NCBI RefSeq assembly: GCF_900167905.1
Contig: NZ_FUYZ01000001.1
Span: 372,001-436,000 of the forward strand
Origin: Soonwooa buanensis
Lineage (GTDB): Bacteria > Bacteroidota > Bacteroidia > Flavobacteriales > Weeksellaceae
Direction of reading: 5' to 3'
DNA length: 64,000 nucleotides
The notes beneath the pieces are model-generated. The model ran no database searches. It was not told where the DNA came from and was given only the letters and a program-made list of their open reading frames with translations. Made by a program: the position numbers and the translations under genes. Below, in pieces: positions 4,292-58,588 of the stretch. Every line of letters starts with the position of its first letter. The stretch's first letter is position 1.

Positions 4292-6310
4292 ATGTTTGAA
4301 TACTATAATAACACGCTTTGCGTTAAAGGAAATTCATTGGCTGAACTTGGAGTTGTAACTCTTAGCAGTTTGAAAGTTCTTACGCATCGAGGCAAAATAA
4401 AAAAAGCACGTTCGGCACGAGGTCTCGGCAGTTGCGCTTTGTATGTTTACGCTTCTCTTCCAGATCGTTTTAAGAATATTATCGAGCATGAGCTTGGTAT
4501 TAATCCTTACGAGGAATCTAGCGTAATAAAATTTTCTGATTATCTGAAAGCAGATGAAACCGCTCTAGCTTATTTCTCTAATTATGAACTTGAGGATGGA
4601 CGTTATCTTTCAGAAGCCAATTCAGAAGCTGTTGAAGAATATACAGCCAATGCTTGCGTATTAAATGCAATTCATAGCGTAATTGAGAAAATATTCAAAG
4701 CTAATCCAAGAATAAACAAAGCAGAATTGTGGGAGAAACTTGCAAAGTCTGTTGAAAATATTGATGCAGATTTAAGAAGCTACTACCCTTTTAATCTTCC
4801 AACCAATCCAAGAGCATTAAGAGCAAAATATGAAGCTTGTATTTTGGAAGTTCCCAACGAAAGATATAAAAGACCTGGTCTCGAAGGATTAATCCACGAC
4901 AATTGGTGTAATAAGCACTCACAAGTGATCACAGAAACAATTGGTAAGTGGTTAATTGTACAGTATGGCATGCCTGTTAAGAGAAGTATTCCAGAAATAC
5001 ACCAAATTTATGAGAATAGCAGGTCGTTAACTGGCTTTCCTCGTCTTTCGGAGAGTTCTATCTATAATTTCCTAATGAAGCCCGAAAATGAGCGTATTTG
5101 GAAGGAGCAGCGTGAAGGTAAAGATGAATACGAAAAACGATTCGGTCATACTATTAAGAAAAATAAAGATGTTTTATTCCCCAATGCTCATTGGGCGATT
5201 GACGGAACTAAACTAGATGCGGTTTACCAAGATGAAAACGGTAAAATGGTTGCAGATAGAAATATAGATGTTGTTTGGGATGTACACAGCGAAACTATTT
5301 TAGGATTCTCATTTTCTGATACCGAAAACCATACAGATCACTTTGTTGCTCTTCGTATGGCAGTGAATAAAGCTTGTGCAAAACCTTACTTATTTACTTA
5401 TGATGCGCAGTCTGGCCATAGAACCAAAAAAATGCAAGAATTATACAGTAATATAGTAGCAACTGGAGGGACTCATTATCATCATAAAGTTGGTAGAAAG
5501 TCAAATCCTGCTGAAGGTTTATTTCACAGGTTACAGCAATTTGCTAGAAGTCGCTTTTGGTTCTTTGATGGTCAAAGTATTAAATCTAAGCAAGATTTGT
5601 CTAAAGCAAACTTTGACTTTATCAAGAAATATAAAAAAGCACTTCCAACCAGAGAAGAACTTTACAAACATTGGTTGGTGTTGGTAAATGAATGGAATAA
5701 CGCCAAACATTCCCGATACAACAAGACAAGGAGTGAAGTTTACAATACAAAATCAGAGTTCACACAGGAGCTTGATCCTTTAGAACAGATTTCTATGTTT
5801 TGGCTTAATGAAACAAAACCTAAGAAATATTATCCTCATGGAATGCCTCTTACTGTTGGAGGAATTGATTATGATTTTGAGGTTTTGGATGGTTCTGGAA
5901 ATATTGATTTAGAGTTTAGAAGAAAATATGTTAACACCAAGTTGATAGTTTCGTATGATCCAGAATACTTAGATCAGTACATAAAACTATACGAGCTTAA
6001 CGAAAAAGGACAAAAGGTTTTCGTTGCTTATGCTGAGAAGAAGCGAGAACATATTCAAATTCCAAAACTATTAACCGAAATAGGTAGCGAAAAAATGCGA
6101 CAGGATTTATTGGTTAAGGAAGAGGAAAGACTTCGAGATAATAATACATATCAAGAATTTGCAAAAGAGTTAGGATTATCTGTAGAAGATTTAATTGATG
6201 AACAAAATGAAAGAATCAGTGACAACAACTGGGAACTCAAAGCAAAACTAGTTGCCTACGGCACCAAAGAAGAACAAATTCAAACAAACAGAAAAGTAAA
6301 AATAATGTAA
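4292..6310 (+). CDS. Mu-type transposase A
   Basis: 672 residues, typical of MuA-like transposases. The N-terminal part has winged-helix-like DNA-binding regions. The catalytic DDE core has D304 in AIDGTK, D371 in TYDAQSGH and E408 in NPAEGLFHRL. The C-terminal part (from about 480) is the Mu transposase beta-barrel region followed by a charged helical tail that would contact MuB. It cuts the prophage ends and joins them to target DNA, giving short target duplications, as the ACACAT flanks show. MuB follows after one base. No damage to the frame or catalytic residues, so the protein should be active. Confidence 0.95.
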   Translation: MFEYYNNTLCVKGNSLAELGVVTLSSLKVLTHRGKIKKARSARGLGSCALYVYASLPDRFKNIIEHELGINPYEESSVIKFSDYLKADETALAYFSNYELEDGRYLSEANSEAVEEYTANACVLNAIHSVIEKIFKANPRINKAELWEKLAKSVENIDADLRSYYPFNLPTNPRALRAKYEACILEVPNERYKRPGLEGLIHDNWCNKHSQVITETIGKWLIVQYGMPVKRSIPEIHQIYENSRSLTGFPRLSESSIYNFLMKPENERIWKEQREGKDEYEKRFGHTIKKNKDVLFPNAHWAIDGTKLDAVYQDENGKMVADRNIDVVWDVHSETILGFSFSDTENHTDHFVALRMAVNKACAKPYLFTYDAQSGHRTKKMQELYSNIVATGGTHYHHKVGRKSNPAEGLFHRLQQFARSRFWFFDGQSIKSKQDLSKANFDFIKKYKKALPTREELYKHWLVLVNEWNNAKHSRYNKTRSEVYNTKSEFTQELDPLEQISMFWLNETKPKKYYPHGMPLTVGGIDYDFEVLDGSGNIDLEFRRKYVNTKLIVSYDPEYLDQYIKLYELNEKGQKVFVAYAEKKREHIQIPKLLTEIGSEKMRQDLLVKEEERLRDNNTYQEFAKELGLSVEDLIDEQNERISDNNWELKAKLVAYGTKEEQIQTNRKVKIM

Positions 6311-6311: not shown

Positions 6312-7172
6312 ATGAATCAGAAAGAGAAAATAGCAATCGTAAATCTACTCCGTGCTTTTGTAGATAACAAAGGAAGCCAGAACAAAGCGGCGGCCGCATT
6401 AAAAGGAGCTTCCACCGCCGTAGTTTCGCATTTATTGAGTGGAAACTGGGAGCCTTACTCAGATGATATGTTTAGAAATATTGGAGCACAGGTAGGCTAC
6501 AATAATCGTGAGTGGCAATTTGCCGAAACAAGCAACTCAACTAAGCTACTGGAAGATTTATTGGATGCAAAACAAAACGCAAAAGTTTTATCAATCGTAG
6601 CTCCTGCTGGAAGTGGAAAATCTGAAACCACCAAGAAATTTGCAGCAGAAAATAAAAACGTCTTCCGTATTGAATGCGGACAATATTGGACGCCCGATTT
6701 TTTCCTTTCAGAAATTATACAAAAAATAGGGATTCAAAGCAATAGTACTAGAGTGCCTTACATGATGAGAGATATTGTTTCCGACCTGCTAAAAAGACAA
6801 TCTCCAATGATCATCATTGATGAAGTGGACAAAGTGGATGACAAGGTTCTTGCCTTTCTTATCACTTTTTACAATGAACTTGTTCCACACTGTTCTATCA
6901 TTATTTCAGCAACTCATTATTTAATCAAGAGAATTAATGACGGCGTAAGACTTCAAAAGAAAAGCTACAACGAAATAAAATCACGTTACGGTAGATATTA
7001 CGAGTTCGAGCCCACTTCTGGCAAAGATGTAAAGATTCTTTGTGAAGCTCAAGGGATTACAGACTCTCAGATTATAAACTCCATTTCTAGAGATTGCAAA
7101 GGAGATTTGAGGATTGCAAGGGATTTAATAATGGATGAGTTAAGAGCGAATAATAAAAAAATCACAGCCTAA
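6312..7172 (+). CDS. MuB-like AAA ATPase, target-selection protein
   Basis: 286 residues. Residues 1-70 form a helix-turn-helix domain. The P-loop APAGSGKS is at 97-104 and the Walker B motif MIIIDEVDKVDD near 160. The layout matches MuB-like ATPases, which coat target DNA, deliver it to MuA and give target immunity. It starts one base after the transposase stop and its own stop overlaps the next ATG (TAATG), so the three genes are coupled. C-terminal helices (DSQIINSISRDCKGDLRIARDLI) are a typical AAA lid. Confidence 0.92.
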   Translation: MNQKEKIAIVNLLRAFVDNKGSQNKAAAALKGASTAVVSHLLSGNWEPYSDDMFRNIGAQVGYNNREWQFAETSNSTKLLEDLLDAKQNAKVLSIVAPAGSGKSETTKKFAAENKNVFRIECGQYWTPDFFLSEIIQKIGIQSNSTRVPYMMRDIVSDLLKRQSPMIIIDEVDKVDDKVLAFLITFYNELVPHCSIIISATHYLIKRINDGVRLQKKSYNEIKSRYGRYYEFEPTSGKDVKILCEAQGITDSQIINSISRDCKGDLRIARDLIMDELRANNKKITA

Positions 7173-7606: not shown

Positions 7607-8254
7607 ATGGCGAAAACGCTGAATGTAAAGACATTTTTAACAAAGAAATTTGATTTAATGCCTTTTGATGGTATTTGGAAAAACTCCTTCGGAAGACCAA
7701 GCAAGCAAGATAGCATGATGATTTATGGAAGCTCTGGAAGCGGCAAAACGGAACTAGCAATGCAATACGGCAGATATCTAACCAATTTTGGTAAAGTCTT
7801 TTACAACTCAATTGAGCAAAGGGATAGTTTTACGTTACAGCAGTCATTAGAAAGAAATCAGATGGATTTGGTTGCAGATAAATTTCAAGTGGTTACAGGC
7901 GCTCAACTTCCAGAACTCGCAGAAAGATTAAGGAAACAACGCTCCGCAGATTTTGTCATTATAGACTCCATACAATATCTAGAAGCCAACAAAGCCGAAT
8001 ATTTTGAATTCAAAGAAGAGTTTTATAAAAAGAAAGGTCTCATCTGGATTAGTCAAGTCAACGGAAAACCAAAACTTGAAAATATAGACGACAAAATCAA
8101 AGGAGCTTTAGCCAATACCATTTGGTACGATGTAGATATTCAAGTCCCCGTGGTAGGCTTCCAAGGATTTCCACAAAAAAGACTCAACGGCGGTGAGGAA
8201 GCATTCATAATAAACCACGAACGAGCAACCAAATATTGGGCAAAAATTAAATAA
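7607..8254 (+). CDS. Phage P-loop ATPase, RecA-like (AAA_24 type)
   Basis: 215 residues with Walker A YGSSGSGKTELA near residue 40, Walker B ADFVIIDSIQYLE near 125, and a sensor-like WISQVNGK near 148. This is the short phage nucleotide-binding family related to the RecA/DnaB core, often found among early genes of Bacteroidetes Mu-like phages. It probably supports phage DNA replication or recombination as a ring ATPase on DNA. Gap to the preceding gene is six bases; same operon. Confidence 0.75.
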   Translation: MAKTLNVKTFLTKKFDLMPFDGIWKNSFGRPSKQDSMMIYGSSGSGKTELAMQYGRYLTNFGKVFYNSIEQRDSFTLQQSLERNQMDLVADKFQVVTGAQLPELAERLRKQRSADFVIIDSIQYLEANKAEYFEFKEEFYKKKGLIWISQVNGKPKLENIDDKIKGALANTIWYDVDIQVPVVGFQGFPQKRLNGGEEAFIINHERATKYWAKIK

Positions 8255-8259
8255 AAAAT

Positions 8260-8580
8260 ATGAAAATAACAGCATTACACTTATTACATACACTAGCATT
8301 GGATAGTATAATTGGCTTTCTTTCTTGGTATGAAAGAACTAGCATTCATTTGTTTTTGAATAATAAAATTTCGCCAGATGAACTTTCAGAAAACATTACT
8401 GAATTAGCCACTATCATTATGCTTCACAATATCACGGCTCCAAATATGAAGTACGGACACGATAGACTTCTCTACTATGAAGAAAACAATAATTGGATGC
8501 CAATTGAAAATTACTTCGCAAATAATCCAGAAATACTACACAAACTAAAAGAATTAACAATAAAAAACGAAACATTATGA
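8260..8580 (+). CDS. Hypothetical early phage protein, 106 residues
   Basis: Mostly helical sequence with no recognised domain: MKITALHLLHTLALDSIIGF at the start, an acidic middle and a lysine/glutamate-rich end. It begins five bases after the ATPase stop and overlaps the DUF3164 start by four bases (ATGA), so it is a real operon member. Role unknown. Confidence 0.6.
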   Translation: MKITALHLLHTLALDSIIGFLSWYERTSIHLFLNNKISPDELSENITELATIIMLHNITAPNMKYGHDRLLYYEENNNWMPIENYFANNPEILHKLKELTIKNETL

Positions 8581-9236
8581 GTATAGACATCACACAGCTT
8601 ACTTCCGAGCAAAAAAAAGCGTTAAAGGCTGAATTAAAAGAACAAGAAAAAGCCGAAAAACAAAAAAGGACAGACGATTTACAAAGCTTCAAAAAACTTT
8701 CTGAAGAATATGTAAATAAAAATATTGATCCTTTGGTTCATCATCATGAAATAACAGAATGTTTAATTGAGAAACTTTGGAAAGATTACGAAACAATAAG
8801 ACAGTTGAAAGCTGAAATCTATGGAACAAAAACCAACGACCAAGATAGCCATACTTCTACCTTAGAAAATGGTTCTGCAAGTATAACAGTTGGTTGGAAT
8901 GTAACCATTGGATTTGATGGCACTGAATCCGCAGGAGTTGAAAAAATTAAAGATTTTATTAACTCGCTTTCCTCTGATGAGGAAAATGTGAAAAAACTTT
9001 CCGCAGCGGTTAATACCTTCTTAAAACCAAATGCTAAAACAGGTATGCTAAACCCATCGAAGATTATTGAGCTATCAAAATTGAAATCAGAATTTAATGA
9101 TGAACGTTTTGATGAAGGTCTTGAAATTATTTTTGAAGCTCAACAACGCCGCCAGAATTCAATGTATGTAAGCGGTTGGAAATTTGTGGAAATAGACGGT
9201 AAACCAAAGAAATTAGAATTCAGATTCACAGTGTAA
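8577..9236 (+). CDS. DUF3164 family protein
   Basis: 219 residues. An N-terminal charged helical region (LTSEQKKALKAELKEQEKAEKQK) is followed by the DUF3164 core, including LKAEIYG, the strand-rich GSASITVGWNVTIGFDGTESAGVEKIKDFI and NPSKIIELSKLK. DUF3164 proteins are found in the early region of Mu-like phages and their biochemical role is not established. The ATG overlaps the preceding stop. Confidence 0.8.
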   Translation: MSIDITQLTSEQKKALKAELKEQEKAEKQKRTDDLQSFKKLSEEYVNKNIDPLVHHHEITECLIEKLWKDYETIRQLKAEIYGTKTNDQDSHTSTLENGSASITVGWNVTIGFDGTESAGVEKIKDFINSLSSDEENVKKLSAAVNTFLKPNAKTGMLNPSKIIELSKLKSEFNDERFDEGLEIIFEAQQRRQNSMYVSGWKFVEIDGKPKKLEFRFTV

Positions 9237-9263
9237 ACAAATCCTAATTAAAACATCAAACAA

Positions 9264-9689
9264 ATGGCAACAACAAAAAAATTGATGACCTTACTTTCAA
9301 AACAAGGTCTAACGAATCAAAGAGCGGATATTATCGCAAACTTTACCAATGGCAGAACTACAAGCGTGAGAGCTTTGCATCCTTTTGAAATAGACAAGCT
9401 TTGCAACTTCTTTGAAGCGGAACAAAAAAAGATTGACCGAGATCTAGACAAAAAAAGAAAACGTGTTATCGCTGTACTATTTGGAATTCACGAGAAACTT
9501 AACAAAAAAGTATCTATGCAGTATGTGAAAGGCATCGCCTGCAAAGCTGCAAAAGTGGAAGATTTTAACAAAATACCTTCTCACAGATTAGATACTCTAT
9601 ATGCCGCCTTTCTTAAACAAGAAAAAGACCTAGACTTTTCCAATAGATATGTAAGCGGATTAATTAACGAAGCGGTTTGTTACAACTAA
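9264..9689 (+). CDS. Basic helical early phage protein
   Basis: 141 residues, basic and mostly helical: KKLMTLLSKQGLTNQRADIIANFTNGRTTSVRAL, then a lysine-rich helix (KIDRDLDKKRKRVIAVLF), then a C-terminal helical bundle. Its place after DUF3164 is where Mu-like phages carry GemA/gp16-type regulators, but I cannot show homology. It lies just upstream of the DGR. I considered whether it could be an Avd-type DGR accessory protein; the charge would fit, the length and pattern do not clearly do so. Confidence 0.6.
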   Translation: MATTKKLMTLLSKQGLTNQRADIIANFTNGRTTSVRALHPFEIDKLCNFFEAEQKKIDRDLDKKRKRVIAVLFGIHEKLNKKVSMQYVKGIACKAAKVEDFNKIPSHRLDTLYAAFLKQEKDLDFSNRYVSGLINEAVCYN

Positions 9690-9841
9690 TGCTCAAGAAA
9701 AGAAAATCAAAACTGACTGATTTATTTCCTGAAAGAGAATCACTCAGAAATCAGCCACTAAAAGTTAAAATCAAAACAAATACAATTAAACAAAATGGAC
9801 ACATTACAAATTACAAAAGAAGCAGCGCAAAAAGCGCATGA
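9689..9841 (+). CDS. Possible small basic ORF
   Basis: 50 codons starting MLKKRKSKLTDLFPERESL. The ATG overlaps the preceding stop (TAATG), which suggests coupling, but its last third overlaps the start of the next gene in another frame. Strongly basic. Reality uncertain. Confidence 0.3.
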   Translation: MLKKRKSKLTDLFPERESLRNQPLKVKIKTNTIKQNGHITNYKRSSAKSA

Positions 9842-10280
9842 AAATGCTAAAAACAGCGGAAAAGAACTACTAGAAAATCTTTTCGGAAAGAAAGTTTTCC
9901 AAAAGAACATCATGGATAGAATCAAAAGTATTGATGACGTAATTAAAGGCCTCGGAAACAATGATTCTGATGTATTGGATTATTTGGAGCTTCAAAAATT
10001 AGACATTGCAGATCATATTTTAGCCAATCAACAATTAGTAATTATCACTAAAGCTCTAAATGAAGGTTGGACGCCCGATTGGGATAATGGACAATGGGAT
10101 AAGTGGTTCAACTGGTTCTATGGTGGTTCGTCCTCGTCTGGTCGGTTCTCGTTCTCCTTCTCCGATTATCAGTACTCGTTTTCGCTTTGCGGCTCTCGCC
10201 TTTGCTTTAAATCCAAAGAACTTGCACAGTACGCAGCGAAACAATTTTTAGATACTTACAAAAGAGCGTTCACAATTTAA
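9795..10280 (+). CDS. DGR target protein 1 (variable protein)
   Basis: 161 residues. Residues 1-75 are helical. ALNEGWTPDWDNGQWDKWFNWF leads into the variable repeat (residues about 111-137: SSSSGRFSF, then changed codons, then CGSRLC). A conserved tail FKSKELAQYAAKQFLDTYKRAFTI closes the protein. The 80-bp repeat differs from the template only where the template has adenine. The protein is short, lacks a signal peptide and lies in the early region, so a cytoplasmic or virion-associated binding role is possible but unknown. A close paralog with its own variable repeat follows at 10469. Confidence 0.85.
   Translation: MDTLQITKEAAQKAHENAKNSGKELLENLFGKKVFQKNIMDRIKSIDDVIKGLGNNDSDVLDYLELQKLDIADHILANQQLVIITKALNEGWTPDWDNGQWDKWFNWFYGGSSSSGRFSFSFSDYQYSFSLCGSRLCFKSKELAQYAAKQFLDTYKRAFTI
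10126..10205 (+). repeat. DGR variable repeat VR1
   Basis: 80 bp, aligned without gaps to the template at 10964-11043. It matches at all 63 non-adenine template positions. Ten of the 14 adenines in the central segment are replaced, and the three adenines of the last 15 bases read G, G and T. In-frame template AAC/AAT codons become TCC, TTC, TAT, TAC, TTT and CTT. Confidence 0.93.
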
Positions 10281-10292
10281 TATATAGAAACA

Positions 10293-10454
10293 ATGGAAAA
10301 GTCTTTTGAAGAATGGTATGATGCGTTTGTCGAATTTGTTCGAGGATTAGGATATCATGGATTTATTGACAAGGATGCATTTTTAGAAGATTATGAAATA
10401 GGAGCTGAACCTATGGAAGCAGCAGAAATTTTTGTGAAAGAAATTAACAATTAA
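10293..10454 (+). CDS. Small acidic ORF between the DGR targets
   Basis: 53 residues, MEKSFEEWYDAFVEFVRGLGYHG..., ending AAEIFVKEINN. Acidic and helical, with a clean start 13 bases after the target-1 stop and its stop 14 bases before target 2. Too short for a standard Avd accessory protein. Function unknown; the spacing suggests a genuine gene. Confidence 0.5.
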   Translation: MEKSFEEWYDAFVEFVRGLGYHGFIDKDAFLEDYEIGAEPMEAAEIFVKEINN

Positions 10455-10468
10455 AAAAAATAGAAACA

Positions 10469-10867
10469 ATGGCAAACATTAAAGAAAAAGTAAAAAGTTT
10501 TGAAGACGCTTGTAGCGTTTTAGGTATTCAACCAACTACACCTGATTTTTCATTCTTAGAAGAAAAGGAGCAAAAAGCGCATGAAGCGCATTTCAAATTA
10601 GTAATTATTGCTAAAGCTCTTAATGAAGGATGGACTCCAAACTGGACAAATGGAAAATCGGATAAGTGGTTTCTATGGTTTGATTTTAATACGGATAATG
10701 AGAAAGGTTCGTCCTCGTCTGGTCGGTTCTCGTTCGACGGCTCCGTTCTTCAGCGCTCGTATTCGGATTGCGGCTCTCGCCTTTGCTTCAAATCGTCAGA
10801 ATTAGCAGATTATGCCGCAGAACAGTTCTTTGATTTGTACAGAGATTACTATGTAATTGAGGATTAA
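10469..10867 (+). CDS. DGR target protein 2 (variable protein)
   Basis: 132 residues, a shorter paralog of target 1: ALNEGWTPNWTNGKSDKWFLWFDF precedes the variable repeat and SSELADYAAEQFFDLYRDYYVIED follows it. The repeat begins at residue 80 and encodes SSSSGRFSF, eleven residues that include the mutable codons, then CGSRLC. Flanking nucleotides outside the 80-bp repeat differ clearly from target 1, while the repeat itself differs only at template adenines. This is the behaviour of mutagenic homing into two loci from one template. No signal peptide. Confidence 0.85.
   Translation: MANIKEKVKSFEDACSVLGIQPTTPDFSFLEEKEQKAHEAHFKLVIIAKALNEGWTPNWTNGKSDKWFLWFDFNTDNEKGSSSSGRFSFDGSVLQRSYSDCGSRLCFKSSELADYAAEQFFDLYRDYYVIED
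10707..10786 (+). repeat. DGR variable repeat VR2
   Basis: 80 bp matching the template at every non-adenine position. Ten of 14 central adenines are replaced, at a set of positions different from VR1. Codons become GAC, GGC, GTT, CTT, CGC, TAT and GAT. The three changes in the last 15 bases are the same as in VR1 (G, G, T), as expected if they are the fixed IMH/IMH* differences. Confidence 0.93.
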
Positions 10868-10868
10868 T

Positions 10869-10934
10869 ATGGAAGTTCTTCTCTTCTTCATCATTTTTAT
10901 ATTGGTCACAGGCCTATTTGATGATAAAAAATAA
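10869..10934 (+). CDS. Possible 21-residue membrane peptide
   Basis: MEVLLFFIIFILVTGLFDDKK: one hydrophobic helix with a charged end, beginning two bases after the target-2 stop, between VR2 and the template repeat. Could be a real micro-protein or chance. Confidence 0.25.
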   Translation: MEVLLFFIIFILVTGLFDDKK

Positions 10935-10963
10935 AAAATAGGTTGTGTGATGTTTGGGTTTTA

Positions 10964-11043
10964 GTTCGTCCTCGTCTGGTCGGTTCTCGTTCAACAACTC
11001 CGATAATCAGAACTCGAATTCGAATTGCAGCTCTCACCTATGC
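10964..11043 (+). repeat. DGR template repeat (TR)
   Basis: 80 bp, non-coding, between the second target and the reverse transcriptase gene. The first 29 bases contain no adenine. The rest has 17 adenines, mostly in AAC and AAT codons when read in the target frame, the codon choice that gives the widest amino-acid range on adenine mutagenesis. It ends with CACCTATGC and runs into an A9 tract. Confidence 0.93.
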
Positions 11044-11155
11044 AAAAAAAAATAAAACATCACAAACCTTAGCTCTCGCTAAAAAACAACAAACTTTCCA
11101 AAAGGCGTTAGTAGGATTTCCGAAAACGACTTTTTTAAAAGCAAAGGAAATTGAT

Positions 11156-12133
11156 ATGAAAAGAATTAACAATATATTTCAACGCATAATAAGTATTGAA
11201 AACTTGATGATTGCGGATGAAAAAGCACAAAAAGGCAAGGCAAAACAATACGGTGTGGTTCTTCATAACAAAAACAAAGAAGAAAACATCTTGAAGCTTC
11301 ACAATATGCTGATTTCAAAAACTTACAAAACATCGGAATACGATATTTTTAAAGTTCATGAACCCAAAGAACGTGAAGTTTTCCGACTTCCATACTTTCC
11401 CGATAGAATTTGCCATCATGCGATAATGAACGTTTTAGAACCTATTTTCGTGGCGGTTTTTACGGCGGATTCTTATTCTTGCATCAAAGGGCGTGGAATT
11501 CACAAAGCATCTTTCAATCTTAGAAAAGCATTGAAAAACGTTGAAGAAACTACTTACTGCCTAAAGCTTGACATCAAGAAATTTTATCCGAACATCGACC
11601 ATGACATTTTAAAAACGTTACTACGAAGAAAGTTTAAAGATAACGACCTGTTATGGCTACTTGATGATATTATTGATTCTGCACCTGGTCTCCCAATTGG
11701 AAATTATTTGTCTCAATATTTAGCCAACTTTTATCTAACATATTTTGACCACTGGATAAAAGAACAATTGAGAGTAAAGTATTACTTCAGATATGCCGAC
11801 GATATCGTGATTTTACACAAAGATAAAGACTATTTGCACAGGGTTTTAAATGTTATTAAAGACTATTTCGATTTGAATTTACTTCTTGAAGTTAAAGACA
11901 ATTGGCAAGTCTTTCCAGTTGAAGCTCGTGGAATTGATTTCGTTGGATATGTTCACTTCCACACTCACGTACGACTACGGAAAAGTATTAAAAAACGTTT
12001 TGCGAGAATGCTTAAAAGAAAACCTCGCAAAGAGTCAATCGCATCGTACACAGGCTGGACAAAGCACTGTGATTCAAAAAACTTAATGAAAAAACTAATA
12101 CCCGAATGTTCAACTTTAGCGACTTTAAAATAA
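11156..12133 (+). CDS. DGR reverse transcriptase
   Basis: 325 residues from ATG 11156; the longer open frame upstream runs through the template repeat and is not used. RT motifs: KLDIKKFYPNIDH (137-149), GLPIGNYLSQYLANFYL (178-194, with the LPIG...SQ signature typical of DGR enzymes), and the catalytic YADD at 213-216. The basic C-terminus (RKSIKKRFARMLKRKPRK) would bind RNA. The enzyme copies the template RNA with adenine-specific errors and feeds the variable repeats. The last 28 bases overlap the next gene. No Avd gene is recognised nearby. Confidence 0.93.
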   Translation: MKRINNIFQRIISIENLMIADEKAQKGKAKQYGVVLHNKNKEENILKLHNMLISKTYKTSEYDIFKVHEPKEREVFRLPYFPDRICHHAIMNVLEPIFVAVFTADSYSCIKGRGIHKASFNLRKALKNVEETTYCLKLDIKKFYPNIDHDILKTLLRRKFKDNDLLWLLDDIIDSAPGLPIGNYLSQYLANFYLTYFDHWIKEQLRVKYYFRYADDIVILHKDKDYLHRVLNVIKDYFDLNLLLEVKDNWQVFPVEARGIDFVGYVHFHTHVRLRKSIKKRFARMLKRKPRKESIASYTGWTKHCDSKNLMKKLIPECSTLATLK

Positions 12134-28471: not shown

Positions 28472-30016
28472 ATGTCTAATAATACAATTAGTTTAAAAAA
28501 AATTAACGATTTCAACGATTACAAAATTGATATTTCTAATAATTTAGTTATTGTTGGTGCAAATGGAAGTGGAAAGTCAAAATTAGGATATCAATTAAGT
28601 CATTCAATTCCAAATTGTAAAAGAATTTCTGCAAATAGAATAATGTCTATTCATTATACTGTTCCAACAGGTAATTATGAAGAATCATTACAAAAACACA
28701 TAGAAGAATGGAAATACAAACCAATTGATGAACCATTTTCCGACTTTATAACTTTACTTTCTACACTTTTTATGCAATCAACTATACGTGATAGAGATTA
28801 TGTCGATTTATGTAAAAATAATGTAGGTCAAGTACAGCCACAAATACCCTTATCGGCAATTGACAAATTAAGTAATATATGGAAGGAACTTTTTCCGCAC
28901 AGACAAATAAAATTTATTGATAATACTATAAAATGCTTTGATGAAAATTTAAATGAATTTTCTGCAAATTTTCTTAGCGATGGTGAAAAGGTTGGATTAT
29001 ATTTAATTTCACAATGTTTAATAGTTCCAAAAGATTTTCATATCATAATAGATGAACCTGAGCTACATTTACACAAAGCTTTGATGAGTAAATTATGGAA
29101 TTTAATTGAAAGGGAAAGACCAGATTGTAAATTTATATATATAACTCATGATTTAGATTTTGCAGCATCTAGAATTTACGCAGAAAAAATTTGGATAAAA
29201 GAATTCAAAAATCATGAATGGGATTGGGATTTAATATCTAAAAATGAAAGTTTTTCTGAGGACATTATTTTTCAAATTTTAGGTAGTAGAATGCCAATTA
29301 TATTTTGTGAAGGAAACAAATCAAGTTGGGATTATTCCATTTATCAATCTGTATATAAAAACTTTACTGTAATTCCTATTGGTGGCTGTGATAAAGTAAT
29401 AGAATCTACAAAAGCAATAAATAATAATATACATCTTCATCATAGGAAAGCTTTTGGCATCATTGATAAAGATTATAGATCAATGGAAGAAATTAATGCA
29501 TTAGAAAAAGATGATATTTATTGCATAAAAGTAGCTGAAGTTGAAAATTTATTTTTAGTTCCAGAAGTAACGGAAGAAGTTGCAAATCATCTGCACTTAG
29601 ATTCGGCGAAGTTAAATTCTGAAATTTCAAATTATGTTATTTCAGAATTGTCAAATAACTTAGAAAAAGAAATATCTCATTCAACAAATTTAGAAATAAA
29701 CTATAATTTGAATGCGTTTAATATCAAACAAATAGGAAAAGAAAACATCTTAAAAGAGTTGGAAATTCATACGAAATCCATAGATGTAACTTCAATCTAT
29801 GATAAATATGTAAAAATATATAATGATATTATACATTCAAAAGATGTAAAAGTAGCACTTTACAATTATACAAATAAGGGTCTTCTACCAAATGTGAGTA
29901 ACCTTTTCAATTTTAAAAAAAATGCTTTTGCAAATTTAGTTATAAAGCTAAATAATTCCCAAACATCTTCTATAAATGAACTAATGAAAAAATACTTACC
30001 CACTTTAGAAATATAA
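28472..30016 (+). CDS. AAA ATPase with DUF4435 (TOPRIM-like) domain, putative phage defence
   Basis: 514 residues. The N-terminal ABC/SMC-type ATPase has Walker A VGANGSGKSKLGYQL (about 29-43), a signature-like LSDGEKVGLYLISQ, Walker B DFHIIIDEPELHLH and the switch histidine in YITHDLDFAASR. From about 270 (MPIIFCEGNKSSWDYSIYQSVY, IPIGGCDKVI, FGIIDKDYRS, EVENLFLVPEV) it has the DUF4435/TOPRIM-like acidic pattern. This architecture is related to OLD-type nucleases, and such pairs are often antiviral. It is the only gene of the cassette 28447-30207. The defence role is inference. Confidence 0.8.
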   Translation: MSNNTISLKKINDFNDYKIDISNNLVIVGANGSGKSKLGYQLSHSIPNCKRISANRIMSIHYTVPTGNYEESLQKHIEEWKYKPIDEPFSDFITLLSTLFMQSTIRDRDYVDLCKNNVGQVQPQIPLSAIDKLSNIWKELFPHRQIKFIDNTIKCFDENLNEFSANFLSDGEKVGLYLISQCLIVPKDFHIIIDEPELHLHKALMSKLWNLIERERPDCKFIYITHDLDFAASRIYAEKIWIKEFKNHEWDWDLISKNESFSEDIIFQILGSRMPIIFCEGNKSSWDYSIYQSVYKNFTVIPIGGCDKVIESTKAINNNIHLHHRKAFGIIDKDYRSMEEINALEKDDIYCIKVAEVENLFLVPEVTEEVANHLHLDSAKLNSEISNYVISELSNNLEKEISHSTNLEINYNLNAFNIKQIGKENILKELEIHTKSIDVTSIYDKYVKIYNDIIHSKDVKVALYNYTNKGLLPNVSNLFNFKKNAFANLVIKLNNSQTSSINELMKKYLPTLEI

Positions 30017-39517: not shown

Positions 39518-40492
39518 ATGGATAAAAACAAACATTTAGATTCAGTTATTTCGACACATCAGATAACTAAAGAAGAAACACTTTTTGACAAATACGTTAA
39601 AAAGAAAAATGAGGTTAAAGAAGCCTTGGAAGAAATCTACGGAAGCAATATCTATTCTCCGTTCAATTCGGGTTCGTATGCTAAGAATACCGCTATCAAC
39701 ACAAAATTTGATTTTGATTTGGTATCCCCATTCAAACGTAATGCTTTTGGCTCGAACGGAACATTAAAAGAAATGTATGAAGATGTCTACGATTTTCTTT
39801 ACGAGAAATATAAAGATGTTGCAGAGGTTAAAAAGCAAAAAGTTTCAATTGGTTTGGAGTTTTACGCTGACAGTGATGGAGACGTAATTAAAATTGATGT
39901 TGTTCCTGGTCGTGAGTTGTCCCAAGACCAATACAAGGAAGATGAAAATTTGAACTTGTATGTCTATTACAAATATGGAAATATTGATGCAGGCAGTGAG
40001 CGAATTAAAACCAATGTCAAAGCTCAAATCAATAATATTAAAGACAGAGCTACGGCTGAAAAAGATTCGATAAGAAAAATTATACGTCTTTTAAAAGTTT
40101 GGAAAAACACCAAGTATAATTATCCTACCAAATCTTTCTTTTTGGAACTGATTACCATCAAAGCATTTGATAACAAAACCATAACTGGCGGCATATGGGA
40201 TAAGCTTGAGACGGTCTTAGAATATATTAGGGATAATGTAACCAAGGAAAACTTTACATTAAAAGATCCGGGCAATAGTTCGAATGATTTAGCTGATACT
40301 TTAACTTCAACCGAAAAACAACAATTGTCGGATGATATGAAAAATATGCTTGATAGAATTGAGGATAATGATGAGAATCTGAAAACGTATTTTCCTGAAA
40401 ATTCTAAGTTTAAAAAAGAAGATACCAACAATAATCAATACGGAAAGAACAGTGGTATGCCGATTCCTCCACCGAAACTAAATTTTGGATAA
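39518..40492 (+). CDS. CD-NTase, CBASS cyclic oligonucleotide synthase
   Basis: 324 residues. GSYAKNT (52-58) and D65/D67 in KFDFDLVSPF form the nucleotidyltransferase site, with a third aspartate in VIKIDVVPG near 127. The C-terminal helical part fits cGAS/DncV-like enzymes. On phage infection these make cyclic nucleotides that switch on effectors. The protein ends PPPKLNFG: a flexible tail with a terminal glycine, as needed for conjugation by Cap2. The Cap2 gene follows after five bases. The nucleotide product cannot be read. Confidence 0.92.
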   Translation: MDKNKHLDSVISTHQITKEETLFDKYVKKKNEVKEALEEIYGSNIYSPFNSGSYAKNTAINTKFDFDLVSPFKRNAFGSNGTLKEMYEDVYDFLYEKYKDVAEVKKQKVSIGLEFYADSDGDVIKIDVVPGRELSQDQYKEDENLNLYVYYKYGNIDAGSERIKTNVKAQINNIKDRATAEKDSIRKIIRLLKVWKNTKYNYPTKSFFLELITIKAFDNKTITGGIWDKLETVLEYIRDNVTKENFTLKDPGNSSNDLADTLTSTEKQQLSDDMKNMLDRIEDNDENLKTYFPENSKFKKEDTNNNQYGKNSGMPIPPPKLNFG

Positions 40493-40497
40493 TTATA

Positions 40498-42168
40498 ATG
40501 AGCCAAAGAGTAAATGAAATCAACACAGTAGTAGAAAGCATTCCCGATGTAAAAATTGTAAAGCCATTTGAGCAGAGCAAAATTGACATCGAGGGATGTA
40601 TTACTGTTTTTGTTGAAGGATTAGAGCAACCATTAGAATTCAACGTTACTATCCATCCTCAATATCCGTTTAAAAGTCACGAAACAGAGACTATTAAGTT
40701 TTCTAATGACGATTTGATAGAGCATAAACACATTATGCAAAATGGAGCCATCTGTATTCATACAGCACATACTCCTGTTTTGTCCGAAAAACTAATTTAT
40801 GATATTGAATCTGTAAAGGCTTGGATTAAGAAATATTACATCAACAAAGATTCGGATACTCATTATGAACATTTGATTGTACCACAAAAAGCATTTAATG
40901 AAAACCATTTTGCTTACTTCTTCAATGAAGTAGATTATACTTTTAATAAAAACCAATTTGGCTTTGTTGACTATTCAATAATGAACAATGGAGTTTTTTA
41001 CAAAAAAAATATTCAGAGCAGTATTTTTCAGTCTTTCTTAAATAAGGATAGAAAAAAAATAATAGATGTTAGTTGGAATTTTCAACTTAAAAACCTGCCT
41101 CAAAATACAGGATTATATATCTTCTTAAAAGATGCACCAAGTAAAAATCAACGTTGGGTTTTTAATGATTGGAAAGATTTTGAAGCTATATTACCACAAG
41201 ATTTTTTGAAATTTCTTCACAATGTTGAAGAAAGACTGTTAAAAGAGGAAGGGAAAACGCTTCCTTTATTTGTAGGATATAATATTTCTGAAACAGAAAT
41301 TCATTGGCAAGCGATTATATTGGAAATTGGTAATTTTCCTATTTACGGCGAAAAGATAAACAAACAATGGTTTACAAAGATTAAAGAAGATAAGCCCATC
41401 GATTGGGCGATGACAAGAAATTGCTCTTACAAGTACTTTTTTGGCAGAGGAAAACTAAGTGACCGAATAACAGAAAGTAAAATATTGATTATTGGTATCG
41501 GAGCTATAGGGAGCATAGTAGCTAAAACATTGGTAAGATGTGGCTGTAGAAAGTTAGATTTTATAGAATATGACATAAAAGAACCAGAAAATGTTTGTAG
41601 ATCTGAATATTCTTTCTTTACAGGAATTACTAACAAAACAAATGATTTATTAAATGAGTTGTGTTTAATATCGCCCTATTATGAAATACCAAAAGGTGGA
41701 TACGAGTTTTCTGAAATGTTTGATATTGTCATAAAATCTTATTTAAATGATCGACAAACAAAAAATGAAATTGAAAAAATAATAAATGAATATGATATAA
41801 TTTTTGATTGCTCTGCAGATAATGATTTGCTTTACGTATTAAGTCAGTTAAATATAAATTCAACACTTTTAAATCTCTCAATATCAAACCACGCAAAACA
41901 TTTGGTCTGTGCTACGGAACATAATCGGTATGACTTTATAACATCCCAATTTGGCGGAAATATTCTCAAATTTGATATTGACGACTTACATAATCCAACA
42001 GGCTGTTGGAGTCCAACATTTAAAGCTTCTTACAATGATATAAATGTTCTTGTACAGACAGCGTTAAAGCAGATAAATTTGAAATTAGAGCAAGAAAAAA
42101 CACTAAGGAATTTTGTTGTTGAAACAGATGACACAAATTGTTTCAACATTAATATAAAGGAATTTTGA
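40498..42168 (+). CDS. cap2: Cap2-type E2-E1 fusion protein
   Basis: 556 residues. The N-terminal E2-like domain has FNVTIHPQYPFKSHE and MQNGAICIHTAHTP with candidate cysteine C86. The E1/ThiF adenylation domain has the GxGxxG motif in ILIIGIGAIGSIVAKTLVRCGCRKLDFIEYD near 325-355 and a downstream DCSADNDLLYVLSQ. In type II CBASS, Cap2 links the C-terminal glycine of the CD-NTase to targets and primes the enzyme. Overlaps Cap3 by four bases. Confidence 0.9.
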   Translation: MSQRVNEINTVVESIPDVKIVKPFEQSKIDIEGCITVFVEGLEQPLEFNVTIHPQYPFKSHETETIKFSNDDLIEHKHIMQNGAICIHTAHTPVLSEKLIYDIESVKAWIKKYYINKDSDTHYEHLIVPQKAFNENHFAYFFNEVDYTFNKNQFGFVDYSIMNNGVFYKKNIQSSIFQSFLNKDRKKIIDVSWNFQLKNLPQNTGLYIFLKDAPSKNQRWVFNDWKDFEAILPQDFLKFLHNVEERLLKEEGKTLPLFVGYNISETEIHWQAIILEIGNFPIYGEKINKQWFTKIKEDKPIDWAMTRNCSYKYFFGRGKLSDRITESKILIIGIGAIGSIVAKTLVRCGCRKLDFIEYDIKEPENVCRSEYSFFTGITNKTNDLLNELCLISPYYEIPKGGYEFSEMFDIVIKSYLNDRQTKNEIEKIINEYDIIFDCSADNDLLYVLSQLNINSTLLNLSISNHAKHLVCATEHNRYDFITSQFGGNILKFDIDDLHNPTGCWSPTFKASYNDINVLVQTALKQINLKLEQEKTLRNFVVETDDTNCFNINIKEF

Positions 42169-42632
42169 TTTTAAAAATAGAAAAAATAGGATTAAGTCTT
42201 AAAATTGAGGACAAATTGCTAAATAAACTTCTGGAAATAGGCAAAACTCATTATCCTAAAGAATTTGGTGGATTTTTGATTGGGTATTACTCCGAAGACA
42301 ATAAGCATTTGCATATTACAGATACAATACTTCCGAAAAAGTATCAAGCATCAAAATATTCTTTTGAACGAAGTACAAAAGGAATAGAAAATGAACTTGC
42401 AGAATTTTACGCAGAGAATCCGAGAAAGATTTATATCGGGGAATGGCATACTCATCCAGATAATAGTCCTATACCTAGTGCAACAGATATTTCCGCAATA
42501 AATACAATTATAAGCCGCAAAAATACTTCCATCGTAAATCCAGTTTTATTGATAATAGGATATTCCAAGACAACGGTAGATTTTGGATTTTACGTTTGGT
42601 TTGAAAATAAATTATATAAATATGAAAAATAA
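42165..42632 (+). CDS. cap3: Cap3-type JAMM isopeptidase
   Basis: 155 residues. EFGGFLIGYY supplies the glutamate and EWHTHPDNSPIPSATD supplies the H-x-H-x7-S-x2-D zinc site of JAB/MPN isopeptidases. In type II CBASS, Cap3 removes the CD-NTase from conjugates made by Cap2. The start is TTG at 42165 overlapping the Cap2 stop (TTTTGATT region), a non-ATG start. Overlaps the next gene by 11 bases. Confidence 0.9.
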   Translation: MILKIEKIGLSLKIEDKLLNKLLEIGKTHYPKEFGGFLIGYYSEDNKHLHITDTILPKKYQASKYSFERSTKGIENELAEFYAENPRKIYIGEWHTHPDNSPIPSATDISAINTIISRKNTSIVNPVLLIIGYSKTTVDFGFYVWFENKLYKYEK

Positions 42633-43380
42633 GTTACTTAAAGCTAAATTCTTTGGAATTCTTTTATTCCTATCTACTAATACATATAGCCAATCAGATA
42701 GTGTTAGATTAAAAACATTAGAAACAAAGGTTCAGTTAATTGAAGATTATAAATCAAATATTGACCAATACGCAAAAATTGAATTAGAAAAACATAAAGC
42801 AGAACTTAAAGCAGATATTGATAAGGATTATGAAAATGTCAGAAATCTTTTCGCTTTAATTCTACTCATAGGTGTTCCCACTACGCTATATGGATTGTAT
42901 GAAATGTTTTGGGGAACTAAGAAAAAAATAAAAAAAGCAATTGAGGAAAAGATAGAGAAAATTGTTGAATTGAAGAGAGAGGATATAATAAAGCTTATCA
43001 ATAATCAAGCCTACGATAGACAAATTAAAGCGAGTAAGAAAATTTTAATTCTAAGTGTGACTGAAGAGGCTCAAGAAGATATTAAAAATACCACCGCTAA
43101 TATGGGTTTTAAAAATTTAATATTTAGACTTACCAATTCTACAACAGACTTACCGGAAAACGATTTGATTATAATTAACAACATTGATGGAGAATTTTCC
43201 CAAGAAAAAATCAGTGAAATTATTGAAGAAAATAGTGATGAGGATACATTTTTTGTTGCCTATACTTCTAAACAAATCGATAGAAATCCGAGAATGAATT
43301 TTGCTAATTCGAAATTTACATTGTATCATTCAATTTTAACAACACTTGCATTTACTACTTCTATTAGAGATATTGACTAA
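42622..43380 (+). CDS. Membrane effector candidate of the CBASS operon
   Basis: 252 residues from ATG 42622. A signal-like start (LKAKFFGILLFLSTNTYSQSD) is followed by a coiled coil (KTLETKVQLIEDYKS...AELKADIDKDYENV) that should be outside, then a membrane helix (LFALILLIGVPTTLYGLYEMFW, about 78-98). The rest is a cytoplasmic Rossmann-like domain (KKILILSVTEEAQEDIKNTTANMGFKNLIFRL...DLIIINNIDGEFSQEKISEIIEENSDEDTFFVAYTS). Last gene of the operon. The cytoplasmic part could sense the cyclic nucleotide. No named effector family recognised. Confidence 0.65.
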   Translation: MKNKLLKAKFFGILLFLSTNTYSQSDSVRLKTLETKVQLIEDYKSNIDQYAKIELEKHKAELKADIDKDYENVRNLFALILLIGVPTTLYGLYEMFWGTKKKIKKAIEEKIEKIVELKREDIIKLINNQAYDRQIKASKKILILSVTEEAQEDIKNTTANMGFKNLIFRLTNSTTDLPENDLIIINNIDGEFSQEKISEIIEENSDEDTFFVAYTSKQIDRNPRMNFANSKFTLYHSILTTLAFTTSIRDID

Positions 43381-47699: not shown

Positions 47700-49493
47700 T
47701 TAAGTCCTGTCCTTCAAAGCACGCAACGCTGAAGTGATGGAAATCACGTCTACCACTTCCTGAAGCCCTGCACCTAACAAAGCAGGCAATAAGCCGAAAG
47801 CAGCAATAAGCATCAATACGGTGCAAACTGCAATACCAATAAAAACAGACTGGCGGGCAATCTTCATTGTTTCTCTGGAAATCATGACAGTGTCACTTAC
47901 TTTTTCCAGATTGTCTTTCAAAATCACCACATCTGCAGAATCACTTGCTGCGCTGGATCCTTTGGCTCCCATTGCAATTCCCACATCGGCAACAGTTAAA
48001 GATGGTGCGTCATTCACACCATCTCCCACCATTACAATTGGACGAAAATCATCACTTACGCTTTTCAGGATTTTCAGTTTGTCTTCCGGCAAACATCCCG
48101 CATACACTTCCGAAATGCCTATTTCTTTAGCTATCGTTTCAGAAATACTTTGTTTATCACCGGAAATCATCATGATTTTCCGAATACCCATTTTCAGTAA
48201 CTGGGCAATGGTTTGTCTGGCTTCCGGACGGACTTCATCGGAAAACGTAATTTCTCCTACATATTGGTCATTAACCGAAACAAACAGAGAAGTTTTTTCT
48301 GATTTTATCTGAATGGACTGATTGGTAACAAAATTCAGTTTTCCTACTTTTATCAATTTTCCATTTACTTTTCCCTCAACTCCTTTTCCTTCAATTTCTT
48401 TTAAATCTGTTGCTAGAGGGATATTTTTGGAGCCAATATTTTTCATTATCGAAATTGCCAGAACGTGCGAGGATTGCTGTTCCACGCTGGCTACCAAATC
48501 TATCAGTTCTTCTTTGGAAAAAAGATTTTCAGGCAGTATTTCATCCATCGCGAGATCTCCTTTGGTTAAAGTACCTGTTTTATCAAACGCAATGGCTTTC
48601 ATTTTGTCCAGCTTTTCAATAACGGTTCCGGATTTAATCACCACACCATTCCTACTGGAGCGACTCATTCCCGAAATCAGTGCGATAGGTGCGGCGAGAA
48701 TGAGCGGACAAGGCGAAGCAACCACTAAAACTTCGGCAATACGATTGGGGTCTCTGGTAATCAAATAGGAAATTCCGGCTATAAGAAAGGCTACAATGGT
48801 AAAAGGCAGAGCATAGCGGTCTGCCATTCTTACAAAGTGTGCAGGCTCTTTTTCAGAATTATGAACCAACTGAACGAGCTGCTGATACTGGCTGTCTTTG
48901 GCGAGTTTAGATACCTGAATGGTAATGGCTCCCGAGCCGTTCAACGAACCCGACCACAAACTGTTGCCTCTCAGTTTACTGACAGGTTTTGATTCTCCCG
49001 TAAGTGAAGATTCGTCCAGCAGCACCTCATCACTCAAAAGAATTCCATCAACAGGAACAGTTTCTTTTGGTTTTACGATGATGATGTCTCCGATTTGTAT
49101 GTCATCAACAGGAACGTCGTTAAGGTCATTACCTATTTTTTTATGGGCAATCTTCGGTGTGTTATCAAGCAGTGATTTTAAATCTTTCCGGGCTTTTTTC
49201 TGGGCATAATCTTCCAGAGAATCACCTCCTGTAATCATAATGAGAATGATGAGTGATGCCCAGTAATTTCCCACAGCCAATGTTGCGGCAATAGCAGAAA
49301 TCGCCAAAATATCCACTCCGAAATTCCCGGAGCGAAGAACATCGATCATCCCTTTCAAAAGAATGACCGACATTATAATTCCGGTAACAGTTATTAAAAT
49401 TTTAGCATAATAAGGCTCTTTCAGGATAAATTCCAGAAGTAGTGCCACTACTGCAATACTGAGTACTGTAATGAATTTATTTATGTTTTTCAT
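47700..49493 (-). CDS. P1B-type heavy-metal ATPase, SPC-motif group
   Basis: 597 residues without an N-terminal metal-binding domain. Order: membrane helices, actuator LDESSLTGESKPV, intramembrane metal site VVASPCPLILAAPIA (SPC, not CPC), phosphorylation site AFDKTGTLTKG, and VMVGDGVNDAPSLTVADVGIAMG. The SPC motif and lack of HMA domain fit the P1B-4 group that exports Co2+, Fe2+ or Ni2+. The usual HP dipeptide after the phosphorylation site reads HV (QQSSHVLA). Lies between the two PAP2 copies, in the direction of the metal operon. Confidence 0.9.
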   Translation of the reverse strand: MKNINKFITVLSIAVVALLLEFILKEPYYAKILITVTGIIMSVILLKGMIDVLRSGNFGVDILAISAIAATLAVGNYWASLIILIMITGGDSLEDYAQKKARKDLKSLLDNTPKIAHKKIGNDLNDVPVDDIQIGDIIIVKPKETVPVDGILLSDEVLLDESSLTGESKPVSKLRGNSLWSGSLNGSGAITIQVSKLAKDSQYQQLVQLVHNSEKEPAHFVRMADRYALPFTIVAFLIAGISYLITRDPNRIAEVLVVASPCPLILAAPIALISGMSRSSRNGVVIKSGTVIEKLDKMKAIAFDKTGTLTKGDLAMDEILPENLFSKEELIDLVASVEQQSSHVLAISIMKNIGSKNIPLATDLKEIEGKGVEGKVNGKLIKVGKLNFVTNQSIQIKSEKTSLFVSVNDQYVGEITFSDEVRPEARQTIAQLLKMGIRKIMMISGDKQSISETIAKEIGISEVYAGCLPEDKLKILKSVSDDFRPIVMVGDGVNDAPSLTVADVGIAMGAKGSSAASDSADVVILKDNLEKVSDTVMISRETMKIARQSVFIGIAVCTVLMLIAAFGLLPALLGAGLQEVVDVISITSALRALKDRT

Positions 49494-49504
49494 TGATTTT
49501 AAAT

Positions 49505-50266: not shown

Positions 50267-50742
50267 CGTACCAAAATTTCTTTATTGATCTGACCTTTCA
50301 TCGATTTGACCCAGCTTTGGATTAAAGACTTTTGTTCTGCAGACAATTTCGCCTGGGTGTGAATGACGGTATAACTGCTTAACGGCATTTCATCAGCATT
50401 TACCGTTTCTGCAACTTCATCTAATTTCTGCAGTTTTTTATCTTTCGGATAAGTACCAAATTTATCAAAATTCAAATGCCTTTTCCCGTCATTGATATGA
50501 TTTGCCAGCCACCATTTTACCGGCTGAACCTTGCTGTACCAAGGATAAACGGTATTGTTGGAATGGCAGTCATAGCAACTGGTTTTTAAAATCTGCTGCA
50601 CATTTTGAGGTACAGAATAATGCTTTTCAATAGCATTTTTAGATGTTTCAGCTACATAATTAGGCATCACATCAAAAAATTGTATCGCAATAAATAGTAT
50701 CAATATAATTGCTATGCTTATTTTTTTAATTCTAGATTTCAT
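50263..50742 (-). CDS. Haem-binding domain protein
   Basis: 159 residues with a membrane anchor (KISIAIILILFIAIQFF) and one c-type haem motif SCYDCHSNNTVYPWY near residue 56, then WWLANHINDGKRHLNFDKFG and a methionine that could be the distal ligand (NADEMPLSSYTVIH). This is the Bacteroidetes haem_bd family of small periplasmic cytochromes. Translationally coupled to the PAP2 gene. Confidence 0.85.
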   Translation of the reverse strand: MKSRIKKISIAIILILFIAIQFFDVMPNYVAETSKNAIEKHYSVPQNVQQILKTSCYDCHSNNTVYPWYSKVQPVKWWLANHINDGKRHLNFDKFGTYPKDKKLQKLDEVAETVNADEMPLSSYTVIHTQAKLSAEQKSLIQSWVKSMKGQINKEILVR

Positions 50743-50759
50743 TTTTTATCTTATTTGTT

Positions 50760-51914: not shown

Positions 51915-51916
51915 TT

Positions 51917-56260: not shown

Positions 56261-56427
56261 ATTTAATTCTGTTAATCGTAAAAAATAATTGAATGTGATT
56301 TTATAACCGCCAATGAATTATTGACAGAAAACCCGACACCTAAAAAAATGTATAGATGCTGCTTTCCGAATTTTTTCAAAAACAGTAATATCAGATGAAT
56401 GAACTCACCTGAAAAAATCAAAAAAGA

Positions 56428-57951: not shown

Positions 57952-57954
57952 TGG

Positions 57955-58569: not shown

Positions 58570-58588
58570 TGTATTTTGGTTTTAGTAT

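Follow-up and report, generated by a model that had tools for sequence, protein, structure and literature searches.

The 64,000-nucleotide window analysed here (Soonwooa buanensis, assembly GCF_900167905.1, contig NZ_FUYZ01000001.1, positions 372,001 to 436,000, forward strand) carries between positions 9795 and 12133 what is, with a probability of roughly 0.93, a complete diversity-generating retroelement (DGR) of a Mu-like prophage; this figure covers the working of the element and leaves aside the role of its targets. The identity of the locus as a DGR is secure. The first-pass annotation had called it a complete DGR with two targets, and every testable part of that call holds. Beyond it go the location among early genes, the family of small paired targets, the structured RNA and the absence of a Bordetella-type Avd. 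The cassette consists of a template repeat (TR), two variable repeats (VRs) ending in an initiation of mutagenic homing (IMH) sequence, two target genes and a reverse transcriptase (RT) gene, as follows (aa, amino acids; ORF, open reading frame).

9795..10280, + strand: target A, 161 aa, PHROG 11581, carries VR1
10126..10205, + strand: VR1, inside target A, aligned with TR without gaps
10197..10205, + strand: IMH core of VR1, CGCCTTTGC
10293..10454, + strand: small ORF between the targets, 53 aa, weak PHROG 519 match
10469..10867, + strand: target B, 132 aa, PHROG 11581, paralogue of target A, carries VR2
10707..10786, + strand: VR2, inside target B, aligned with TR without gaps
10778..10786, + strand: IMH core of VR2, CGCCTTTGC
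10964..11043, + strand: TR, 80 bp, its 3′ end being the altered form IMH*, CACCTATGC at 11035-11043
11156..12133, + strand: DGR reverse transcriptase, 325 aa, PHROG 1423 (E 1.2e-125), RVT_1, motifs LPIGNYLSQ and YADD

Over the 80 ungapped bases, all 63 non-adenine template positions are identical in both VRs, and the 13 differences of each VR from TR all fall on the 17 template adenines (hypergeometric P = 7.6e-12 per repeat, given 13 differences). Ten of the 14 central adenines are changed in each VR, at positions that are not the same set, and three adenines on the 3′ side carry changes common to VR1 and VR2 (A>G, A>G, A>T). The coordinates, the gap-free alignment and the counts of the first-pass annotation are borne out by this re-counting. 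It had placed the template adenines in AAC and AAT codons of the target frame, which are indeed present; the central adenines also sit in GAT and CAG codons. Stop codons are impossible at these sites, and by codon count the 14 central positions allow up to 1.8e8 protein variants per target. Beyond the three copies, the best ungapped match to TR in the window has 31 non-adenine mismatches. A degenerate pattern of the last 69 bases of TR, with at most 3 mismatches, matches exactly three copies in the whole 3.33-Mb genome (30 contigs), namely TR, VR1 and VR2; no further remote VR was found there with it, and a reversed control pattern has 0 matches. The features sought as marks of a DGR, namely adenine-limited TR/VR differences, VRs in open target genes, an RT of the DGR group near TR and an IMH/IMH* distinction, are thus all present.

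The RT gene that was said to follow with LPIG...SQ and YADD motifs does contain GLPIGNYLSQ and YADD, and LPIGNYLSQ and YADD stand at the same places as IPIGSLTSQ and YMDD of Bordetella phage BPP-1. NCBIfam models of group II, retron and defence-associated RTs (DRT) match it only far below their cut-offs; the generic RT and DRT models of PADLOC, which have no cut-offs, also match it. Its relatives found by tblastn include five Bordetella phage records and crAssphage LMMB, and the nearest named relatives are from Chryseobacterium. A dead RT in all relatives would have spoken against the call; the seven other near-full-length matches (70-84% identity) have no internal stop. An open frame from 10943 passes through the template, but the ATG at 11156 is more likely to be the coding start, because conserved RNA, described below, occupies the stretch between TR and this ATG.

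Evidence that the cassette family diversifies its targets comes from close relatives. In a first survey, 326 viral-contig stretches encoded RT relatives, and the best 80, together with the window and seven genome loci, gave 88 loci, among which 13 viral ones are near-copies of others by template region. Two VRs were found in 73 loci, three in 2, one in 6 and none in 7. Eight of the 13 loci with fewer than two VRs have less than 720 bases 5′ of the RT, and in L099 the template is more distant, with three VRs. The L099 arrangement (4497-5001) has the spacer RNA about 400 bases ahead of the RT, an extra frame of about 110 aa between them and three VRs upstream.

Compared position by position, loci L054 and L055 have different bases at 11 of the 37 adenine sites of their VRs, every one of them in the upstream VR, and are otherwise identical (other VR sites 0/110, TR 0/74, remaining sites 0/1,979). 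Four Elizabethkingia-type cassettes, compared pairwise, differ at 17-23 of 36 adenine sites, at 0/116 other VR sites and at 0/76 TR sites, with 27-137 differences per about 1,970 sites outside VR and TR. More distant pairs show 0/93, 1/101, 1/114 and 3/101 non-adenine VR changes alongside 19-24 adenine-site changes. Such non-adenine changes (L053 with L054, L055 or L127, 3/101, with TR 1/73; L074 with L111, 1/101; L104 with L116, 1/114) are limited to pairs differing by about 3-7% in their remaining sequence. The overall tally at non-adenine positions, 6,736 unchanged and 11 changed, is biased, because the repeat scan stops at non-adenine mismatches, and the comparison of near-identical cassettes is the fair test. 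The first-pass annotation had proposed that changes in related strains should fall at template adenines only; in the closest pairs they do, and TR stays constant. This adenine-only divergence is an indirect sign of mutagenic retrohoming, and the DGR family appears to have been active recently, a statement that concerns the family and is drawn from relatives of this very copy. Genome G061 contains three DGR cassettes of the window type (L125, L126 and L127), two of them with identical VRs.

The template itself is predicted to lie within a conserved, covarying stem with two hairpins behind it, formed by the following elements.

10941..10953, + strand: helix P1, 5′ strand, directly 5′ of the template; 4 bp, one bulged base, 8 bp
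11057..11068, + strand: helix P1, 3′ strand, closing the template into a loop
11070..11081, + strand: hairpin P2
11102..11132, + strand: hairpin P3, 7 + 2 conserved pairs
11057..11152, + strand: spacer RNA element, 87.9 bits with covariance model R1, the window being one of its 39 training sequences

P1 is made of GGTT, the bulged base and eight variable pairs, and P2 and P3 then extend to the RT start. Across 62 aligned loci, 97.1% of 1,549 cells form standard pairs, compared with 80.2% in shuffles and 38-45% with slid partners; the structure was taken from the tested alignment itself, so that the unslid version has an advantage in the paired-cell count, and the shuffles ignore the kinship of the sequences. 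Changes on both sides of a pair were counted in 305 cells (87 in shuffles) and affect 17 of 25 pairs (13.1 in shuffles, 2 of 500 reaching as many). The count of both-sided changes and the covariation score both lie above all 500 shuffles and all slid versions.

Model R1, built from P2-P3 of 39 sequences, was run on 23 sources and then on 80, with L136, L137 and L140 repeated; the second run was given 67 of 72 genome loci. Eleven of the 23 sources match at E <= 1, including the crAss-like phages cr60_1 (7.6e-7), cr55_1 (8.1e-5) and LMMB (2.9e-4) and, marginally, Lactobacillus phage LBR48 (0.033), Versailles (0.55) and BalMu-1 (0.74). The other 12 are without a match (L010, L011, L030, L032, L038, L039, L129, whose RT is cut, L131, L136, L137, which is BPP-1, L139 and L140). 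In the second run, 67 of the 80 sources match directly 5′ of the RT on the same strand (66 at E <= 0.022), and 13 do not match (L136, L137, L140, L214, L217, with a cut RT, L218, L219 and L224-L229). L175 has a further match on its opposite strand (E 0.62), which was treated as noise. Among the loci without a match, L225-L227 carry annotated genes for Avd and others have none annotated; therefore, absence of the element is not simply tied to Avd. P1, with or without the bulge, was sought 5′ of 70 R1 matches, and at 59 of them at least 11 of its 12 pairs form; the mean is 11.4, compared with 9.0 in shuffles. These matches suggest that the spacer RNA can be traced to crAss-like phages. Rfam has 0 matches in the window at gathering thresholds. 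A cryo-electron microscopy study of the Bordetella RNA-RT-Avd complex reportedly exists. That a folded spacer recruits the RT is known for Bordetella (PMC12875486, PMC8867640). A literature search by title and opening of the abstract, mostly outside subscription journals, found no covariation-based consensus of a DGR spacer RNA for this group.

The limits of replacement were read from 120 VR/TR pairs of 62 loci. Of the 120 VRs, 110 contain the IMH core CGCCTT; the 62 templates all lack it, and the broken motif occurs among them in 11 different forms. This distribution supports the IMH/IMH* distinction, and the three shared 3′ changes, which had been likened to fixed IMH/IMH* differences, are fixed columns across the family. 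In the central adenine columns (134-168), three or four bases occur and 25-89% of the sites are changed. The flanks contain constant columns, on the 5′ side column 118 (G 64, T 2; n = 66) and column 125 (G 61/61), and on the 3′ side columns 173 (G 111/112), 180 (G 96/97) and 184 (T 63/63); columns 126 (G 10, A 7, T 1; n = 18) and 100 (G 6, A 6; n = 12) are less strict. Four-fold synonymous codon positions make up 66/66 sites of column 118 and 62/63 of column 184, with T in 62/62. Because all four bases are synonymous there, the constancy of these two columns does not come from protein selection, and the simplest reading would be that the constant flanking columns mark the limits of the stretch that is normally replaced. 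Two hairpins were considered at this end. A 3-bp IMH hairpin, GGC-TCNC-GCC, has all three pairs possible in 95/120 VRs and 1/62 TRs; it is not claimed, being short, broken in 25 VRs and equally well explained by the sequence motif. A hairpin behind the VR, which in Bordetella is GC-rich with 7-10 bp and a 4-nt loop, is not a general feature; perfect stems of at least 7 bp with a loop of 3-6, at most 80 nt after the VR, follow 13 of the 120 VRs (11%), which is above chance (2.7% in shuffles).

The proposed working of the cassette takes its starting points from what was observed here, namely the sequence anatomy, the adenine-only divergence of near-identical relatives, the conserved covarying RNA and the IMH/IMH* distinction; transcription, binding of RNA by the RT, the order of steps and the transfer of complementary DNA (cDNA) are modelled on the Bordetella system. 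Transcription would run from 5′ of TR into the RT gene, and the RNA would fold so that P1 loops out the template, with P2 and P3 behind it. The RT would bind this folded RNA and copy the template, misreading adenines, and the cDNA, anchored at the IMH (TCNCGCCTTTGC), would then replace the homologous stretch of one of the two targets. The template would be spared, since it carries the broken IMH. A single event could randomise up to 14 central adenine positions, all in stop-free codons.

PHROG 11581, which both targets match, is a family of unknown function, and targets A and B are paralogous beyond the VRs (an 85-nt direct repeat, 80%). The 53-aa ORF between them is no usual part of the cassette, because the gap between targets is 30 bases or less in 67 of the 71 loci with two called target ORFs. 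Most VR rows (143/157) end 22-28 codons upstream of the target stop. None of 67 target sequences matches the Pfam C-lectin or FGE families at E <= 0.01. An AlphaFold2 model of target B is mostly helical with a mean predicted local distance difference test score of 80.5, falling below 50 in residues 77-101, the VR part; its best Foldseek E value, 5.9, is not meaningful and is no proof of a new fold. Sequence searches of solved structures with the small-target profile and a tail-type profile gave nothing useful. A GSRLCF stretch common to different targets is perhaps imposed by the IMH. In locus L190 of Sphingobacterium griseoflavum (1928-2785), a single 286-aa ORF with two VRs unites the two small targets, a fusion which suggests that they act together. 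Relatives of the small targets are also encoded by the crAss-like phages cr109_1 (L131, 3986-4393; match to residues 7-113) and cr60_1 (L139, 1486-1893; residues 7-79). Because the cr60_1 relative sits far from the RT, the small-target family may also occur where nothing diversifies it.

A second set of 88 loci was drawn from genome, phage and plasmid records, its phages being partly shared with the first survey. It contains 35 loci with two small targets, 11 with three, one with four, three with one small target, 29 with a single target of at least 300 aa and nine with none; some of the counts of three or four VRs are artefacts of pairing one VR with another. On an RT tree of 97 rows, the target labels (set by hand from the ORFs for the small targets of 12 first-survey rows) need 3 changes; shuffled labels need 23.5, and none of 500 shuffles went as low. 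A clade of 59 rows (support 100/96) contains 51 of the 53 multi-small-target cassettes, eight unlabelled rows and no single-large one; its sister group consists of 14 single-large-target cassettes (support 94/78), of which nine have CGCCTT in the VR, as read by eye, and 11 reach 12 P1 pairs. Because 51 of 53 fall in one clade, the small paired targets arose mainly once in the sampled loci. The two rows outside are L200, a possible second case, and L214, where the ORFs called at the repeats have only 84 and 50 aa and are probably wrong. Two targets are not new in themselves, because about 13% of cassettes have been counted with two target genes for one template (PMC10743442) and several VRs were found in 271 of 948 DGRs (PMC6642488). 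The same literature search did not find small paired early-region targets, which may be among the 24 target clusters of PMC8144416.

An Avd of the Bordetella type was sought with PF22296, which matches in none of 17 sources (the genome itself, 12 viral contigs that are possibly fragments, and four phages) and did match in the BPP-1 positive control. NF033474 likewise matches BPP-1 Avd and none of the six window ORFs tested with it, and the broader PF05635 has six matches in the genome, none of them inside the window. An accessory protein unrelated to Bordetella-type Avd may exist in the cassette.

The cassette lies in the early region of the prophage, downstream of the genes below; a MuA-type transposase and a MuB-type ATPase at the left end mark the prophage as Mu-like.

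4292-6310, + strand: MuA-like transposase, PHROG 310, E 2.9e-48
6312-7172, + strand: MuB-like transposition protein, PHROG 296, E 4.9e-47
7607..9689, + strand: early genes 5′ of the cassette, encoding an ATPase (PHROG 6891), a DUF3164 protein and a protein matching PHROG 14123

Around 15 small-target cassettes, 159 ORFs of at least 100 aa were collected, and 104 of them, from 14 cassettes, were scanned. The commonest neighbour families are ATPases (7), an unknown family (7), Mu-type transposition proteins (5), tail completion or neck proteins (4) and PHROG 14123 (4), followed by minor head proteins (3), methyltransferases and exonucleases. Elsewhere in the window, the prophage region includes an AriA-AriB (PARIS)-like protein (28472-30016; PADLOC AriAB, E 9e-134). 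Positions 39518-43380 hold an operon resembling a cyclic oligonucleotide-based antiphage signalling system (CBASS), with a CD-NTase (oligonucleotide cyclase), E1-E2, JAB and a membrane protein, and 47700-59053 hold heavy-metal and arsenic-resistance-like genes (P-type ATPase, RND efflux, arsenite transporter), as judged from ORF translations alone.

Ordinary gene duplication, leaving two paralogues and a gene fragment, would account for the clear likeness of targets A and B outside the VRs. However, it leaves unexplained why the template differs from them at 0 of 63 non-adenine positions, yet is flanked by sequence without visible likeness to the target genes, and why the closest relatives change at adenines only; the adenine-only differences, both between TR and VRs and among near-identical relatives, exclude it for practical purposes. 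A DGR that was active in ancestors and is now decayed or silent, its repeats fixed in this prophage, is improbable rather than negligible. Several observations weigh against a working DGR with non-virion targets, and the first two are what a silent element would leave. The sole record of the phage of the window, L042, is 100% identical over 12,396 bp, its VRs included, and in G061 the VRs of L125 and L126 are identical, as expected of recent replicative transposition. Loci L054 and L055 may be one strain sequenced twice, in which case their differences would still be adenine-site variation. Avd is part of the Bordetella DGR machinery (PMC12875486), and a cassette lacking one of that type departs from it. 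With regard to the targets, the scanned neighbours include PHROG 26 (tail completion or neck, 4 of 104) and PHROG 220 (minor head, 3 of 104), and their non-virion role is drawn from gene position. Against silence of the DGR stand the open RT with intact motifs, the pairing of P1-P3 in the window, the intact IMH in both targets and the 0 differences at 63 non-adenine positions.

To judge from gene position and one natural fusion, the two targets are probably binding proteins that interact with each other, do not belong to the virion and are produced in the lysogen or early in infection. That they are instead virion receptor-binding proteins encoded apart from the tail genes, serving the usual tropism switch, is rather unlikely. 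In three DGR clades, most viral targets carry tail-protein annotations (PMC8144416), and in hhalign the small-target profiles align with the C-terminus of the large tail-type targets of the sister cassettes (32-74 columns, probability 88-90%, E 2-3e-6). However, most of the alignment falls on the VR and the end encoded by the IMH, so that a shared IMH alone could force it; the targets are only 132-161 aa long, their genes sit behind MuA-, MuB-, ATPase- and DUF3164-type genes, and the 25 commonest of the 104 neighbour families around 14 related cassettes include no tail fibre family. A broader proposal, offered tentatively and with the balance somewhat against it, is that a widespread clade of Bacteroidota prophages redirected the DGR from tail fibres to pairs of small intracellular proteins. 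In this proposal the hypermutated pair would cooperate within the host cell, for instance to counter rival phages or host defences that vary, and the system would work without a Bordetella-type Avd and with a covarying template RNA of its own.

Phage DGRs have mostly been interpreted as a means of switching tropism, and the C-lectin fold as near-universal among their targets (PMC8144416). If a large clade with small paired early-region targets exists, it raises what else phages diversify, and against what, in a form testable in cultivable bacteria. The covariation-defined template RNA, together with a compact IMH broken in all 62 templates, may provide a testable rule for cDNA priming and template sparing without a Bordetella-type Avd.

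Compared with known DGRs, the cassette is a variant: its paired targets are small and lie in the early region, its template RNA is defined, and it has no Avd of the Bordetella type. It resembles BPP-1 in its adenine-only TR/VR differences, RT motifs (G...SQ and YxDD), IMH/IMH* and a TR-RT spacer that folds, which in BPP-1 recruits the RT complex (PMC12875486). In BPP-1, however, Avd is present, the VR lies in the tail protein gene mtd and model R1 finds no match at E <= 1. The DGRs of the crAss-like phages LMMB (published in PMC7290462), cr55_1 and cr60_1 have a related RT (48-58% identity) and a matching spacer RNA directly 5′ of it (E 3e-4, 8e-5 and 8e-7, respectively), but a single large target, which is annotated as a tail-collar fibre in LMMB and a tail protein in cr60_1 and is an unannotated 572-aa protein in cr55_1. 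Hankyphage, a transposable Bacteroides phage, also carries a DGR, and adenine-site diversity was seen there in cultures, whereas that DGR diversifies a tail fibre gene and has Avd (PMC12135933). In the phage DGR of Quimbyvirus, one target is encoded outside the structural module and close to defence-related genes (PMC8008677), but its two targets both contain C-type lectin domains and are far from each other, unlike the adjacent small paralogues without a recognised domain described here. Tentaclin cassettes likewise serve two targets from one template (PMC10743442); as that source describes them, those are two C-lectin proteins of different topology, whereas the targets of the present cassette are small paralogues.

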